Shown: positions 16,303 through 22,997 of the stretch, piece by piece | Numbering within the stretch: the stretch's first letter is position 1 | Layout of the letters: each line of letters begins with the position of its first letter | Origin: a virus | Reading direction: 5' to 3' (one strand) | DNA: 24,725 nt | IMG/VR virus record: IMGVR_UViG_3300028829_000619 | Location: 1-24,725 of that record | The notes under the pieces: model-generated | Told to the model about the DNA's origin: nothing | The model's input: only the letters and a program-made list of their open reading frames with translations | Databases searched by the model: none | Translations under genes and position numbers: made by a program

Positions 16303-17469
16303 CTACATTATAGAATAGCTTCCATAATTCTTATTTAACCCTAATGTATCCATCTCGTGATAGCGTACTGCATCCAATCCATGATTGAAATTATCAATGG
16401 GTTTGTTTAGTCGCTTACCTGTTTTATCAGTATCCCAACAATATGAACGAAGTTCTTTAATTAGGTTTGTGCTGCTCTTTGTTACCAGATAATCTTGCCT
16501 TTGCATTACATCTATTCCATAGTTGATAGAATCCTTTCCTTTGGTTGCACCCTTTATAAGCACTCCGTGTTTCTCTCTGCGTATTTCTTCAATGCTTTTA
16601 GGCTCTGCACTATCTGCTACTATTGGAACGCTTACAGGCAATATTTTAGCGATGTCAGAATTCAGCAGTTTCGTTTGGTATGCTAACTCGTTTAATATCC
16701 TTTGGTTATTATAGGTGTATATCTCAATAATTGCCGTTGGGTCTGCCGAATATCCGAAGTCAAGTCCTATGCCTATCAATCTCGCTTCCTCTGGTATTTT
16801 ATCAATGATTGTATAGTTGGTAAATACTGCTCCTTGCAATTGACCGATTTTGCCCTCTCCATAAACACGCCACCAATTGTCCCAATAAGTGCTTGTCTTT
16901 GCTTTTAAGCGATTCTTTTCTATTTGTTGTACAATACCCTCGTCAAGTCCTTGATTGTCCTTGTACGTTAAGATAATGAAGTCTGCATCTGATTCGTGTT
17001 TTAGTTCGGTGTGTACCCAAAACTCATTAGCTGGATTAAAATCTAAATAAACTTCCTTTCGTGTTCTGATTGCCATCTCATTGTAAGCATCAAAGGTTAT
17101 ATTGTTGCACTCATTAATATACAGAATATCTCTTCTTGCTCCTCTTAACTTGCTTGAGTCATCTGCACTAAAGAACTCAATAAAACTACCATTAGCAAAG
17201 TCATAACGTAAATGGCTCTTGTTATATCTGTCATCAAAGTATCTATTCGTCCACTTCATAATCTTCAAGAAGTCCCTTAATGCCCCTCTTCTTAAATGTG
17301 GTATTGATTCGGCTACTACGCTAATCTCAAGGCTGGGTGTATCTGCTGCTTTGTGTATAAGGATAGGCAAGATACCAAACGTCTTACCAGCACTTGTGCC
17401 ACCTTGTATAATTTTGATTCGTTTTTTTAACGCTAATATCTTATCTATTGCCGTTGTCCTCTTTAACAT
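16303..17469 (-). CDS. terL: Terminase large subunit
   Basis: The 388-residue packaging motor has all expected parts. The ATPase has Walker A GGTSAGKT at 23-30, Walker B ILYINE at 115-120 with catalytic Glu120, and the coupling motif YLDFNPANEFW at 141-151. The nuclease (RNase H-like) has GLDFGYSADPTA with Asp237, VADSAEP with Asp286, and NHGLDAVRY with Asp366, a full set of three acidic residues. The arrangement resembles the PBSX/phage terminase 3 group. It cuts and pumps genomic DNA into the prohead through the portal. It overlaps the small subunit gene by 29 bases. The 388-residue length is slightly short for the group but nothing essential is missing. Confidence 0.92.
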   Translation of the reverse strand: MLKRTTAIDKILALKKRIKIIQGGTSAGKTFGILPILIHKAADTPSLEISVVAESIPHLRRGALRDFLKIMKWTNRYFDDRYNKSHLRYDFANGSFIEFFSADDSSKLRGARRDILYINECNNITFDAYNEMAIRTRKEVYLDFNPANEFWVHTELKHESDADFIILTYKDNQGLDEGIVQQIEKNRLKAKTSTYWDNWWRVYGEGKIGQLQGAVFTNYTIIDKIPEEARLIGIGLDFGYSADPTAIIEIYTYNNQRILNELAYQTKLLNSDIAKILPVSVPIVADSAEPKSIEEIRREKHGVLIKGATKGKDSINYGIDVMQRQDYLVTKSSTNLIKELRSYCWDTDKTGKRLNKPIDNFNHGLDAVRYHEMDTLGLNKNYGSYSIM

Positions 17470-17773
17470 CTGGGAATAAAGGTTGCTCTATATTGGTTTG
17501 TTCTATCTGTTGTACAGGCGCGCCATAAGCACTATCTAAAAGCTTTTGGTATGCCATTGCATCTCCTGTTCTTGCTTTCTTGATTAAAGCCAATGTCATT
17601 AAGTCCTCTTGGCTCATTATCTCATTATCTCCTGTTAACGGATTCTTTAAGTCTTGTTCTACTGATAGCCACTTCTTTGCTACCGTGCTTCTGTTCTTAC
17701 TTCCCTTTGGTCTGCCTTTAGGATTACCAGATTGCCCTTTCTCGTATGGTATTAAGTTTTCTTCGTTAGCCAT
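17441..17773 (-). CDS. Terminase small subunit-like, DUF5681-type DNA-binding protein
   Basis: The 110-residue protein begins MANEENLIPYEKGQSGNPKG and continues RPKGSKNRST, the DUF5681 signature, a basic AT-hook-like element (about residues 12-28). A helical part follows, with EDLMTLALIKKARTGDAMAY and QKLLDSAYGAP, and a short acidic tail. It lies directly before the large subunit gene, overlapping it, which is the usual small-subunit place; DUF5681 proteins often take that position in Bacteroidota and proteobacterial phages. It would recognise the packaging site. The start lies 2 bases after the stop of the TET/JBP-like gene, so packaging and DNA modification are in one transcript. Confidence 0.7.
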   Translation of the reverse strand: MANEENLIPYEKGQSGNPKGRPKGSKNRSTVAKKWLSVEQDLKNPLTGDNEIMSQEDLMTLALIKKARTGDAMAYQKLLDSAYGAPVQQIEQTNIEQPLFPDVKEDNGNR

Positions 17774-17775
17774 AA

Positions 17776-18570
17776 TTAAATTCCTTTAAATGCTTTTAAT
17801 GGATAAAATATTAAACTGTTTCTGTATCCTCCCTCGTGGGTTGGAATTATTGGTGTTACTCCGTGTATGTTTTTCCAAGCTGGGTAAACTAATATTGAAT
17901 TATCCTGTTGCCCTATAGTTATGTCATAGTCTGGTACGTGCAAATCTCCTCCCCTTGAATTGTTGCGCTTACATATAATGACGTTAACTGCGCCCTTAAT
18001 GTTTCCTGTGTCCCTGTGAAAAGGTGCTGAAATATTATAATTACTAATAGAGCTGGTAAACAAATTACCAAATCTCCACTTCTTATCTACGTCTTCAAAT
18101 AGCTTTGTTTGTGCCTTATATTGTTTAGGCATTATTTCCTTTATTAATTGTTCACTTTCTTTAGCTAACATCAACATCGCTTTTATAAATGTTTGGGCAG
18201 ACTTAACCGAATGAACGCTGGATATGGTTGGATATGGTCTGCGCATATGTGGCTTCGGTGGTACACCGCCTAATATAGCACTCATTTGAGTAACCAATTC
18301 AACATTGGCTTTTGCTCTTTCAGCCTTATCTTTTTTACTACCTTGAGGACCTCTGCTCATCTCTGTTTTTGGTACATTGTTACTGTTAAATTCTTTGTTT
18401 GCAATATTAGCTAATTTACACATCGCATCAGTCATCTGCGTCATATAAAAACCAACAGGCTCACCGTCTAAATAAAAGATGCTATCTTCAATGATATTCG
18501 GTTCTTTGTATTCGCATTTATTACCTATCTTTACATTGTGATTTACTTCCTGTAATATAACTTTTTCCAT
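17776..18570 (-). CDS. TET/JBP-type 2-oxoglutarate/Fe(II) dioxygenase, predicted DNA base hydroxylase
   Basis: The 264-residue protein ends in a double-stranded beta-helix dioxygenase core. SAPFHRDTGN gives the iron-binding H185-x-D187 pair. GGDLHVPDYDITIG is the characteristic central strand pair. HGVTP gives the distal iron ligand His236, and YRNSLIFYP gives Arg250 for 2-oxoglutarate. This order and spacing, with RGGxL and a nearby Arg, fit the TET/JBP family better than AlkB or prolyl hydroxylases. The N-terminal 150 residues are helical, without recognised motifs apart from PTISSVHSVKSAQTF. Such enzymes hydroxylate the methyl group of 5-methylpyrimidines in DNA. The gene overlaps the glycosyltransferase by 28 bases. 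No cytosine methyltransferase lies in this window. Confidence 0.75.
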   Translation of the reverse strand: MEKVILQEVNHNVKIGNKCEYKEPNIIEDSIFYLDGEPVGFYMTQMTDAMCKLANIANKEFNSNNVPKTEMSRGPQGSKKDKAERAKANVELVTQMSAILGGVPPKPHMRRPYPTISSVHSVKSAQTFIKAMLMLAKESEQLIKEIMPKQYKAQTKLFEDVDKKWRFGNLFTSSISNYNISAPFHRDTGNIKGAVNVIICKRNNSRGGDLHVPDYDITIGQQDNSILVYPAWKNIHGVTPIIPTHEGGYRNSLIFYPLKAFKGI

Positions 18571-19376
18571 TCCTTTATCTGTTTTGGGTTGTTAAACCTA
18601 ATTTGTAGTTCTGCTTTTGGGTGGCAATTCTTTTTTACTTTGTATCTAAAAAAATTAGGGTATTTACGCATTAAATATGCGCAGTCTATAATTTTACGTT
18701 TGACACGTTCATTATAAGTTCCAATCCCACCCTTCTCATAATGTCCTGCTATTGGCTTTATAAAGCTATTGATGAGTACTGCATTGTTTTGTATTAATTG
18801 TTCTGCACAATAGCCAAAATCCTCCATAGCTTCAAGTTTTTTGTCGTATTTAATGCCATTGTATTTAATAGCAACTGCTTTAGATATGACATACCCAACT
18901 GATTTATACTTGCGATTATTAAAATAATAATTATCAACGGATGAAAAACCAATGTATTGTGCATTTATTTTTTCAGCTATATCAATGTCTTGTTTTAATA
19001 ATATCAAAAATTCATTTGCATTTATTTTTTGGTTATAGTCCTTTTGAGTTATATTTTTACTTGTAACATCTATTTTTTTTTGCTGGTAATATTTATCTAT
19101 TACTTTTTTGAATCCACTTATATTATCATCTAATGAAATGTACCACTCATTAAATTGAGCTAAATGATTAGTTATATAATTTCGTTGGTTTGTAATACCT
19201 TTAGGCACATTGGTTACAATTATGTCTTTTTCCTTTACTCTACCGTGTTTTAAATATTCGCTTTTACATTTTTCTGTATGTAATAGCACCTTATAGGAAA
19301 TATTACAACTGTCTAAATACAATGATGTTTTTATTGTATTTGCACGATTGTATGATGGGATATATATTGGTATCAT
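18543..19376 (-). CDS. TET-associated glycosyltransferase (TAGT-like), predicted to modify DNA bases
   Basis: This 277-residue GT-A-type enzyme opens MIPIYIPSYNRANTIKT (residues 1-17), the classic nucleotide-sugar binding strand and loop. Around residues 58-70 is PKGITNQRNYITN, and at 77-89 NEWYISLDDNISG, with the DD pair (83-84) as the metal/sugar-nucleotide motif. AMEDFGYC near residue 183 may give the catalytic acid. I recognise this set as the TAGT family, known from comparative genomics to pair with phage TET/JBP oxygenases and to add sugars to hydroxymethylated bases. It overlaps both neighbours (4 and 28 bases). The A/T-richness and Lys/Asn-rich composition are more extreme than in neighbours, a possible sign of separate acquisition. 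Substrate and sugar are unknown. Confidence 0.75.
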   Translation of the reverse strand: MIPIYIPSYNRANTIKTSLYLDSCNISYKVLLHTEKCKSEYLKHGRVKEKDIIVTNVPKGITNQRNYITNHLAQFNEWYISLDDNISGFKKVIDKYYQQKKIDVTSKNITQKDYNQKINANEFLILLKQDIDIAEKINAQYIGFSSVDNYYFNNRKYKSVGYVISKAVAIKYNGIKYDKKLEAMEDFGYCAEQLIQNNAVLINSFIKPIAGHYEKGGIGTYNERVKRKIIDCAYLMRKYPNFFRYKVKKNCHPKAELQIRFNNPKQIKEWKKLYYRK

Positions 19377-19939
19377 ATTTCCCTAAACGCTTGTAATGTT
19401 ATCCAGCCCACATCTTTACCTTCTTTTCTTGCTTCGCTTATAAGCTTAAAGGCTTCGTCATAATGTTCTGCCTCAAATTCTATTTGTATTGCCCTTTTAA
19501 CATTGCCAGTCATATCGTCTAATTCGGCTGCTAAATCCTCATCGTCTAATATACTGTAATCAATATCTTCCTCTGGTTGCCATACATCTAAACCCCAATC
19601 ATTCAGCTCTGGTGTTTCAAAGTTGTTTGCTATTTCGTCCCAATCCCATTCTCCAAATCCTACATTGTCCTTAATGATAAATTCTCTTTGTTGTTTCTCT
19701 GTAAGTTTATCTGCTTGTATTATATGAACTTCTTTTAATCCAGCCTCTTGACAAGCTCTTAATCTCATATTGCCACCAAGCACAATATTATCTTTGTCAA
19801 CTACTATTGGACGTATTTCTAACATCTCTGGAAACTCCTTAATTGACTTTACTAATTTCTTGAACTTATCGTCTTTAATTAGTCTTGGGTTGTTAGGGTT
19901 ATTCTTTATCTTCCCTATCTTTACTTTCTCTGTTTTCAT
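19373..19939 (-). CDS. ParB N-terminal-domain (Srx-like fold) protein
   Basis: The 188-residue protein begins MKTEKVKIGKIKNNPNNPRL and has the ParB-like signature at about residues 40-66: IRPIVVDKDNIVLGGNMRLRACQ, with the GGxxR motif and Arg pair of this nucleotide-binding fold. Next come KEVHIIQADKLTEKQQREF and FGEWDWDEIANNF, typical for the phage version often seen near terminases and DNA-modification genes. The last third is a helical domain (AEHYDEAFKLISEARKEGKD). ParB-type domains can bind or cleave nucleotides or DNA. Position in the TAGT-TET cassette suggests a role in directing or checking base modification. It overlaps the glycosyltransferase by 4 bases (ATGA). Confidence 0.75.
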   Translation of the reverse strand: MKTEKVKIGKIKNNPNNPRLIKDDKFKKLVKSIKEFPEMLEIRPIVVDKDNIVLGGNMRLRACQEAGLKEVHIIQADKLTEKQQREFIIKDNVGFGEWDWDEIANNFETPELNDWGLDVWQPEEDIDYSILDDEDLAAELDDMTGNVKRAIQIEFEAEHYDEAFKLISEARKEGKDVGWITLQAFREI

Positions 19940-20481: not shown

Positions 20482-21015
20482 TTATATTTTTTCGTAATCC
20501 TCGTTTATATAATCCTCGTAATCCTCTGCACAATTATCTCTTAATCTTTGTTTGCAGTATTTAATTGTACTGAATATACTTTTAGTTCCTATCTTGGTTT
20601 CCTTTGATGCCTCTCTAAAACTCCATTCCTTGTCTCTATATAACTTGAATAAACCTTTATCGTACCAATGCCAAGAATCCATCTCTTCAGATAGCTTTGC
20701 TTCCAGTAAATATTCTGCTTCTTTTTTTGATATGTAATCGTATTCAACGGTAAGGTGCTTAATCTCGTCTAAATCTACCTTTTGATGTTTTTGTCTTTCC
20801 ATACATAAGCTTTTAAAGATGTTTCTTAACGTCCAATAAATGTATGGCTTATTTACCTCTCCGTCTTTATGTAGTATCTTGCTTACATCTCCGTATTTAT
20901 GTAGCCTCAAATACATCTCTTGCACTATATCTTCTGCGTAAACATCTTCGCCATAGCTTCGGACTATCCTTAAATAGTCTTCGTGATATTTAGCGACTTC
21001 TGTTAGCCATTTCAT
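20482..21015 (-). CDS. Phage sigma-70-like (ECF-type) transcription factor
   Basis: The 177-residue protein has two sigma-like regions. Region 2 is at about residues 15-80: SYGEDVYAEDIVQEMYLRLH, then YIYWTLRNIFKSLCMERQK. Region 4 is at about residues 120-165: LFKLYRDKEWSFREASKETK and SIFSTIKYCKQRLRD, a helix-turn-helix. The acidic end (DYEDYINEDYEKI) is typical of this phage group. It would redirect host RNA polymerase to phage promoters. It is the first gene of the middle/late transcript and has a well-formed host-type promoter upstream, as expected for a gene switching on later ones. The TTTAGTTATTA sites are candidate targets. Region 4 could also be a plain DNA-binding domain. Confidence 0.65.
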   Translation of the reverse strand: MKWLTEVAKYHEDYLRIVRSYGEDVYAEDIVQEMYLRLHKYGDVSKILHKDGEVNKPYIYWTLRNIFKSLCMERQKHQKVDLDEIKHLTVEYDYISKKEAEYLLEAKLSEEMDSWHWYDKGLFKLYRDKEWSFREASKETKIGTKSIFSTIKYCKQRLRDNCAEDYEDYINEDYEKI

Positions 21016-21387: not shown

Positions 21388-21651
21388 TTAAAATGGTAGG
21401 TCATCCGATGTTGACCTCATAGCTTCTTTTGCCTTGTTATCGGCTTGTGTTCCCCCTTGCTCTACTTCTGCTTGATAAGGTGCGCTAAACTTTGCGCTAA
21501 AATACTTCTTTCCGTTCTTTGATTCGTTTACCCAAAGTGCTACTTCTTTCTCCACACCATCAATAAGTGCCTTGCCTTTGTAATCTGGTTGTGAATCCGT
21601 TTTTTTGTAGTCGTTCTTAAAGATTGCTCCTGTGTTGTTTTTCTGTTCCAT
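21388..21651 (-). CDS. Single-strand DNA-binding-like protein
   Basis: This 87-residue protein begins MEQKNNTGAIFKNDYKKTDS and has an OB-like strand pattern: DYKGKALIDGVEKEVALWVN, then GKKYFSAKFSAPY. It ends with a flexible acidic tail closing in DDLPF, the same type of tip by which bacterial SSB proteins recruit partners. It lies last in an operon with an ERF annealing protein and a YqaJ exonuclease, where an SSB-like partner is expected. It is shorter than bacterial SSB, and the family is the small phage type with NxTGALFKN starts. No catalytic residues. Confidence 0.6.
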   Translation of the reverse strand: MEQKNNTGAIFKNDYKKTDSQPDYKGKALIDGVEKEVALWVNESKNGKKYFSAKFSAPYQAEVEQGGTQADNKAKEAMRSTSDDLPF

Positions 21652-21654
21652 AAC

Positions 21655-21807
21655 TTATTTATTCATTATTTTATTTAATATATACTCACTTACTTTCATC
21701 TCATTCTTTTTAGCCAATTTCTTGATTATTAGCTTTTCTCTTCTTGTGGCTCTTATTGTTATAAGCTCACTCTTTGATTCGTTTACTGATAATTTACGTC
21801 TGCCCAT
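21655..21807 (-). CDS. Ribbon-helix-helix (Arc/MetJ-type) small DNA-binding protein
   Basis: The 50-residue frame begins MGRRKLSVNESKSELITIRA and continues with REKLIIKKLAKKNEMKVSEY, ending ILNKIMNK. A beta strand (ELITIRAT) followed by two helices, the second starting at MKVSEYI, is the ribbon-helix-helix layout. The ATG lies 14 bases inside the end of the exonuclease gene, and the stop is 3 bases before the SSB-like start. It could act as the repressor of its own operon: a perfect dyad overlaps the operon promoter at 23279-23294. Confidence 0.7.
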   Translation of the reverse strand: MGRRKLSVNESKSELITIRATRREKLIIKKLAKKNEMKVSEYILNKIMNK

Positions 21808-22471
21808 CTATTAATGTTTTATAATATTCTCTACATTCTTTTATCCTATCGTAGATGGCTTTAACAACGTCTTTGTTATATCTTACTTCAAACGTTTTGA
21901 TTCGTTTTTCTGCTGGTATATGGTCAAAATTGTGTTTGGCTTCTACTTCTTGGCGTAGTTCTTCAGACTCATCTATTAAATGATTCTTCCAATGCTCTCT
22001 TCTTATTTCATCCTCAACGATTTCATCTGGTGTATTGATTAAACAATATGCAAGAACTGATTTACGTTTGTTACAGAGCGCCATATAGCCCTGTAATTGA
22101 TAATAGTAGTCTTTGTTTGGTATATCTTCAGCAAAGAATGGAAACGTTGTTGCATCATAACTACTCTTCACGTCTAAAAGTATGTTATCCGTGTTTACGT
22201 CTGGAGTACCTGTTAGAAAATCATTGTTAAAATGTTCTTCGTTTTTATACATAAATCCATAATCTAATACCTCTTGTGCTAAATCAATAGATTCACGTTC
22301 TACAAGATTTCCTTTGTCGGTGTAACGGCTTGAAAATTCTTTTCGTATTCCGTACATCTCTTCTATTGCAAGTTCCTGTAAGTAGGTTTTGCAAGTCTTA
22401 CTCAATACTTCAGACTTGCTTCTGCTATTGGTCATTATTTTGCCAAGTGCTGAACATCTAATCTTTAGCAT
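21794..22471 (-). CDS. YqaJ-like phage exonuclease (PD-(D/E)XK)
   Basis: The 225-residue nuclease contains MLKIRCSALGKIM at the start and the core motif at about residues 85-130: FLTGTPDVNTDNILLDVKSS, with Asp and the E/D-x-K pair (LLDVKSS). Then YYYQLQGYMAL provides the conserved Gln. This is the YqaJ/lambda-exo-like pattern. Such nucleases resect double-strand ends to give single strands for an annealing protein. It lies one base after the ERF gene, its natural partner in phage recombination systems. The C-terminal half is helical and charged. Confidence 0.75.
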   Translation of the reverse strand: MLKIRCSALGKIMTNSRSKSEVLSKTCKTYLQELAIEEMYGIRKEFSSRYTDKGNLVERESIDLAQEVLDYGFMYKNEEHFNNDFLTGTPDVNTDNILLDVKSSYDATTFPFFAEDIPNKDYYYQLQGYMALCNKRKSVLAYCLINTPDEIVEDEIRREHWKNHLIDESEELRQEVEAKHNFDHIPAEKRIKTFEVRYNKDVVKAIYDRIKECREYYKTLIDGQT

Positions 22472-22472
22472 C

Positions 22473-22997
22473 TTATAGTTGTTTGAGTTGTGCTGGGGTT
22501 AATGCCCATTCGTTTTTTAGACGTTCCAGAGTATATCTCTTGTCATCAATAGCAACTAAAGCTTCTTTAAATCTGTCATTTGACATCTTTGGTTTAGATG
22601 CTTGTTTATCGTGCTTATTAGTAGCATCACTATCTTTTGTGTCATCTATCAAAAATAAGCCGTTTAATGCATACTTCCGAGCATAGCTACTGCTACTTCC
22701 AAATGCCTGTGCTATATCCATTCCTTTACGGTTTGGGTCTATACCAGCTTGTGCCTTTACTATCTGCACTTTATCGCCATCTGTTAGCATTGCAGTTGCT
22801 TCTACATACATATACCCAGCAGCTTCTTTAACCTCATCAGACAGACTTAATACCAATCCGTTGAGGTGTGGCTTAACGGCTAACATAATGTCCTCACAGG
22901 AACGATATTTATAATTGCCAAATTTGTTAAATTGGTTCTTTGGAGCTTTTAACTCTTGCTGGATTTTCGCCAGTCTTTTGAATAGTGTTTCTTTCAT
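22473..22997 (-). CDS. ERF-family single-strand annealing recombinase
   Basis: The 174-residue protein has the ERF signature: KNQFNKFGNYKYRSCEDIM at about residues 20-38 and AFGSSSSYARKYALNGLFLI at about 98-117, followed by DDTKDSDATN. It anneals complementary single strands for phage recombination and repair. The C-terminal part (ERLKNEWALTPAQLKQL) is short and may bind an SSB or exonuclease partner. It follows the 82-residue gene after 14 bases and precedes the YqaJ-like exonuclease by one base. Confidence 0.85.
   Translation of the reverse strand: MKETLFKRLAKIQQELKAPKNQFNKFGNYKYRSCEDIMLAVKPHLNGLVLSLSDEVKEAAGYMYVEATAMLTDGDKVQIVKAQAGIDPNRKGMDIAQAFGSSSSYARKYALNGLFLIDDTKDSDATNKHDKQASKPKMSNDRFKEALVAIDDKRYTLERLKNEWALTPAQLKQL

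Follow-up and report, generated by a model that had tools for sequence, protein, structure and literature searches.

A phage ParB, TAGT and TET/JBP gene cassette predicted to hypermodify thymine in DNA, and the exchange of its middle gene

What would a phage make with a TET/JBP dioxygenase and a TAGT-type glycosyltransferase that are encoded together behind a ParB-like gene and next to the terminase, and on which DNA base would these enzymes act? Decorated bases, glycosylated ones among them, protect phage DNA, and the original prediction for this locus was a DNA hypermodification cassette yielding an oxidized, glycosylated pyrimidine. The window analyzed here, a stretch of 24,725 bases, is the entire record IMGVR_UViG_3300028829_000619. 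Protein families and predicted folds supported a TET/JBP and TAGT cassette of this type, and the gene partners of the TET clade made thymine a better candidate substrate than 5-methylcytosine (5mC). Between ParB and TET lies a slot whose gene is exchanged among relatives, a point absent from the earlier description.

Genes of the cassette and their neighbors

The cassette is composed of three open reading frames on the minus strand (Table 1). The ParB and TAGT genes overlap by 4 bases and the TAGT and TET genes by 28, and a gap of 2 bases separates TET from the terminase pair downstream; coordinates, overlaps and spacing were all exactly as predicted. In 1000 first-order Markov simulations of the cassette stretch the longest open reading frame never exceeded 135 aa, and thus the three are not of chance length.

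Table 1. Positions in the window of the cassette genes, their catalytic codons and adjacent features
Feature	Position	Strand	Basis
Large terminase subunit	16303..17469	-	Pfam
DUF5681 protein, probable small terminase subunit	17441..17773	-	Pfam DUF5681 and position before terL
TET/JBP 2-oxoglutarate Fe(II) dioxygenase, 264 aa	17776..18570	-	Pfam Tet_JBP, predicted structure
R250 codon, expected 2-oxoglutarate-binding arginine	17821..17823	-	Invariant, 29 sequences
H236 codon, third iron ligand	17863..17865	-	Invariant, 29 sequences
H185-R-D187 codons, HxD iron ligands	18010..18018	-	H185 and D187 invariant, 29 sequences
Approximate block replaced relative to sister phage L002	18500..19390	-	DNA similarity at chance level inside
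Slot gene, divergent TAGT-type GT-A glycosyltransferase, 277 aa	18543..19376	-	Pfam, PHROG, model
D84-D85 codons in SLDDN, GT-A metal/nucleotide-sugar DxD-type motif	19122..19127	-	Conservation
ParB_N-domain protein, 188 aa, first cassette gene	19373..19939	-	Pfam ParB_N; stop and next start overlap by 4 bases

Profile searches placed two of the three proteins above the Pfam cut-offs of their predicted families, Tet_JBP at 42.1 bits (cut-off 34.9, E 6.7e-11) and ParB_N at 32.9 bits (cut-off 26.3, E 7e-08), whereas TAGT (PF20691) reached 24.1 bits on the slot protein, below its cut-off of 27.5 (E 3.8e-05), and was backed by a match to PHROG 842 (3.2e-10), annotated as T-even beta-glucosyl-HMC-alpha-glucosyltransferase. 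A relative of the slot protein (L006) scored 59.6 bits with Pfam TAGT, above the cut-off.

The catalytic residues of TET were evaluated in an alignment of 29 relatives, actinophages among them, in which N190, five residues past H185, is also invariant. We take this position to be that of the base-contacting asparagine of TET2, and thus N190 does not separate thymine from 5mC substrates. An AlphaFold2 model, built from an alignment with three rows from annotated phage records left out, had a pLDDT of 76 with some weak spots, and the top 21 Foldseek matches to it in the PDB were TET2, NgTet1 and CcTet (best E 5e-7, probability 1.0). The protein is predicted to have a double-stranded beta-helix fold like that of TET2 and NgTet1, in agreement with its earlier designation as a beta-helix dioxygenase. 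TM-scores of the TET and TAGT models against the PDB were moderate (0.5-0.6), which backs the fold class and not structural detail. A direct PDB sequence search with the TET protein returned chance matches only, and a profile search reached TET2, weakly. The name "queuine tRNA-ribosyltransferase" (PHROG 6059 and some RefSeq entries) was dropped, domain and fold being those of TET. TET/JBP genes in several public records, including L082 (NC_020847.1) at 17129-17914 and actinophage relatives, bear this label or a DpdA-like one, which looks like propagated misannotation.

Among 28 TAGTs from the slot, D84 is invariant and D85 is conserved in more than 90%. The AlphaFold2 model of the window TAGT (pLDDT 81) found the WrtF fucosyltransferase as its top PDB match (E 2e-4, probability 1.0, TM 0.5), and a GT-A fold with the acidic metal/sugar-nucleotide motif is predicted. 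A PDB profile search with the TAGT found no match, and thus the glycosyltransferase assignment rests on families and fold; a tblastn search of cultured phages with it also found none. The ParB protein carries the GGxxR motif as GGNMR, and no HTH was found in it by Pfam. For the ParB-like gene of phage MED4-184 (L082 15790-16431), which matched the cassette ParB profile, an existing "DNA methylase" annotation was unsupported.

The small terminase call made originally has position and DUF5681 as its basis, and the large terminase is clear by Pfam. DNA modification must precede packaging, and a terminase frequently, although not universally, adjoins the cassette in the relatives and in actinophages. 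A functional tie to packaging, which had been raised as a possibility, was unsupported: eight annotated genes separate cassette and terL in Pelagibacter phage HTVC112P, and thus no mechanistic link is claimed. The closest cultured-phage relatives of the window TerL, at 53% identity, are from Flavobacterium psychrophilum phages, which lack the cassette beside terL; one metagenome-assembled genome (MAG) contig with the TAGT version carries the label Flavobacteriaceae, and the host is probably a flavobacterium. Elsewhere in the window are a recombination module (21388-22997) of SSB-like, RecE-like exonuclease and ERF annealing proteins and, upstream of the cassette at 20482-21015, a weak match to sigma-70 region 2 (E 0.0015, under the cut-off).

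Exchange of the slot gene in related phages

Comparison with sister phage L002 revealed protein identities of 97% for ParB, 91% for TET, 94% for TerS and 98% for TerL, but 29% for TAGT, and DNA similarity is lost only in the slot, from the end of ParB to the first TET codons, with flanks about 90-98% identical. In a further pair, L171 with an FkbM slot and L202 with a TAGT slot, nucleotide identity is 96% in ParB and 91% in TET; it ends where ParB stops and returns where TET starts. These two pairwise cases are firm evidence for exchange of the slot. The nearest relatives of the window TAGT (67-75% identical) are for the most part neighbors of TETs with just 48-53% identity to that of the window, although three of these TETs reach 63-71%, and thus the slot gene has its own history. 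On a quick TET tree 26 changes of slot label were counted, or 27 when the label of the outgroup was included, whereas shuffled labels gave a mean of 37. Thinning of the tree by label inflates the observed count, and starred branches force fewer changes.

A census of the slot was assembled from the best 80 of 513 TET relatives in a viral-contig scan and from two more scans with divergent TETs, giving 200 TET loci from IMG/VR and phages after removal of duplicate contigs. Of these, 178 have ParB upstream of TET, and in 20 of the remaining 22 the sequence starts too near TET for ParB to be judged. Slot counts, which mirror the loci returned by the scans and not natural abundance, were 105 of 178 for an FkbM O-methyltransferase, 50 for TAGT, 11 for a kinase with an amino acid:DNA transferase (ADDT), 3 for another glycosyltransferase-like gene and 1 for FkbM with ADDT, FAD and kinase genes, and 8 slots were empty. 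The 11 kinase and ADDT slots divide into 6 simple ones, 4 with a glutamine amidotransferase, of which three carry a GNAT as well, and 1 with an FAD gene, and kinase and ADDT thus occur together in 12 loci in total. MAG contigs yielded nothing in a first scan and four contigs in a later profile scan.

The FkbM slot proteins of L004 and L082 match TIGR01444 with scores of 54.1 and 58.5 (cut-off 37.7), and in the FkbM family of the slot E72-P73 and K149/D151-I-E-G are conserved, in keeping with a SAM motif. A third glycosyltransferase-like slot gene, in L023, had no Pfam, PHROG or NCBIfam match and, read by eye, would in our reading be a GT-B enzyme. In L350 (5075-6004, a betaproteobacterium MAG contig) the ParB-TET interval holds an unrelated 309-aa gene that is also glycosyltransferase-like by eye. 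Richer slots in L020 (4899-7189), L096 and L097 contain a glutamine amidotransferase, a GNAT acetyltransferase, an ADDT and a P-loop kinase, followed by TET, which suggests an acylated or amidated thymine hypermodification. In L174, L156, L125 and L352 (an Oscillatoria MAG contig) ParB abuts or overlaps TET, and an empty slot predicts an undecorated hydroxymethyl base.

The slot enzymes are closely linked to TET. With an FkbM profile, relatives (the closer ones, the best 80 of 402) were found directly upstream of TET in 79 of 80 loci, and in the remaining one the two are separated by ADDT, FAD and kinase genes. TAGT relatives adjoin a TET in 63 of 65 loci, with one at a distance of 67 bases and one at a contig end, and none of the 65 was demonstrably without TET. 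At 67-75% identity to the window TAGT, relatives occupy the ParB-TET interval in 11 of 12 loci, the twelfth being cut on the ParB side. HTVC112P, with the order ParB-TET-FkbM and a TET from a distant branch, provides an independent case of linkage.

Predicted chemistry, substrate and alternatives

We consider it likely that the cassette oxidizes thymine in DNA and then glycosylates it, with an exchangeable slot for the second step. With 2-oxoglutarate, iron and oxygen, TET/JBP would hydroxylate the thymine methyl group in DNA to 5-hydroxymethyluracil (5hmdU), and the TAGT-type GT-A enzyme would transfer a sugar from a nucleotide-sugar to the 5hmdU hydroxyl, forming a base J-like nucleotide. 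Gene content, folds, conserved catalytic residues, linkage and the exchange of the slot at gene borders were observed directly, whereas we infer both reactions, the choice of thymine, the nature of the sugar, what ParB does and what the modification is for. ParB, the constant partner, is a probable recruiter or spreader of TET on phage DNA, and the modified base may shield that DNA against host nucleases. Relatives would decorate the same hydroxyl differently, probably with a methyl group by FkbM and with amino acid-derived groups by kinase and ADDT. Exchange of the slot at gene borders would fit escape from modification-specific defenses. Defenses aimed at particular decorations exist; in T4 a glucosyltransferase pair aids escape from a stereospecific DNA glycosylase, and solitary TAGT homologues of unknown role have been noted (PMC13216743).

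Thymine is the better guess for the substrate, as judged from the partners of the TET clade, since the same clade is paired elsewhere with enzymes of the 5hmdU pathway, namely ADDTs and P-loop kinases. Among the slot ADDTs several pass the Pfam ADDT model (those of L062 and L119 had no Pfam match), and one that passes matches Ackermannviridae, of which ViI has DNA with a 5hmdU-derived base (PMC6449724). Slot kinases resemble actinophage 5hmU kinases in a moderate profile match (hhalign probability 92) and did not match Pfam Ploopntkinase3. In the actinophage relatives the operon reads ParB-TET-ADDT-kinase-terminase, and that of Tonitrus was proposed as a thymidine hypermodification system (PMC11955845). 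Neither a 5hmdU kinase nor an ADDT was found by Pfam or PHROG in the window cassette or its scanned neighbors. The thymidylate synthase family was found in none of 39 records, many of them partial, nor in the window, and thus no phage route to 5hmdUMP through this family was seen.

It is unlikely, in our estimation, that TET instead oxidizes 5mC supplied by a C5-methyltransferase of the host or by an unseen one of the phage, with TAGT then glycosylating 5-hydroxymethylcytosine (5hmC). The PDB fold neighbors of TET, the nearest solved folds, are mainly 5mC dioxygenases, which speaks against thymine, and some phage TETs reportedly act on 5mC, a finding attributed to Burke et al. in 2021. T-even TAGTs work on glucosylated 5hmC (PMC13216743), and a C5-methyltransferase is present in 7 of 47 records, two of which have kinase/ADDT slots (L020, L119). 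However, the other 40 records are without one, an absence that is weak in the incomplete records, which are the majority, and carries weight for HTVC112P, Prince and Wooper, whose genomes are complete and in which none was found. No member of the C5-cytosine methyltransferase family was found in the window either, as originally stated. The general absence of these enzymes and the pairing of the clade with thymidine-type ADDT and kinase genes both favor thymine, for which no methyltransferase would be needed.

That TET acts on DNA with an unrelated passenger in the middle position, such as a glycosyltransferase for surface structures or a methyltransferase of metabolism, appears very improbable: the GT and FkbM families are broad and slot contents vary, but slot TAGT and FkbM relatives nearly always adjoin a TET, the HTVC112P FkbM does so beside a distant TET in a different gene order, and both TAGT and ADDT are families that modify DNA. 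Least credible is modification of a different base (e.g., N6-methyladenine, as CcTet can act on) or of just a few sites to which ParB directs the enzymes, close to where packaging begins. The constancy of ParB, the nearby terminase and the CcTet structures with 6mA DNA among the fold matches would suit it, whereas the ADDT/kinase association indicates 5hmdU and terminase adjacency is not universal. Oxidation and glycosylation of thymine remains the preferred reading.

Relation to known systems and meaning

Cassettes of TET/JBP with TAGT, and TET-based thymidine operons, are already known kinds. The actinophage thymidine hypermodification operon (Tonitrus, PMC11955845; also Prince and Wooper) likewise has ParB followed by a homologous TET (25-27% identical over its length) before the terminase, but places ADDT/aGPT-PPlase and 5hmU kinase genes after TET, whereas in the window ParB and TET flank a glycosyltransferase. 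The kinetoplastid base J pathway (JBP1/JBP2 and JGT) would be analogous in thymine hydroxylation by TET/JBP followed by glycosylation; it is eukaryotic and uses JGT, whereas the window is from a phage, with a predicted GT-A enzyme that probably belongs to the TAGT family of T-even phages and a predicted product. The T-even TAGT (the T2/T6 second glucosyltransferase, PF20691) would share its glycosyltransferase family and GT-A fold with the window protein, but acts on glucosylated 5hmC, to which it attaches a second sugar, whereas the window cassette showed no alpha- or beta-GT and the acceptor would come from TET. Prochlorococcus phages MED4-184, MED4-117 and P-HS2 have TETs about 50% identical and the order ParB-slot-TET-small gene-terL (read in MED4-184), with an FkbM methyltransferase in the slot instead of TAGT. 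HTVC112P is a further cultured phage with a ParB, TET and FkbM cluster, differing in its distant-branch TET, in the slot gene after TET and in the remote terL.

A provisional literature search found no description of whole-chemistry exchange at one slot nor of the FkbM version, and a search on FkbM and phage DNA modification found nothing relevant; both features seem, provisionally, to be new within these known kinds. We propose tentatively, as quite possible, that a conserved phage TET makes a 5hmdU platform and that a one-position slot, recombined at gene borders, switches the chemistry of the final base. The FkbM version, the commonest sampled, would then yield 5-methoxymethyl-deoxyuridine, which we do not know as a described DNA base, and the window version a prokaryotic base J-like nucleotide. 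The idea is testable now, since FkbM versions are present in cultured Prochlorococcus and Pelagibacter phages. If it is right, one oxidized base underlies many phage DNA disguises and a single-gene swap changes the disguise, and nature would offer a collection of almost identical phages whose main difference is the decorating enzyme, of use for finding new DNA-modifying enzymes, possibly including a DNA-base O-methyltransferase, and the host defenses that select them.
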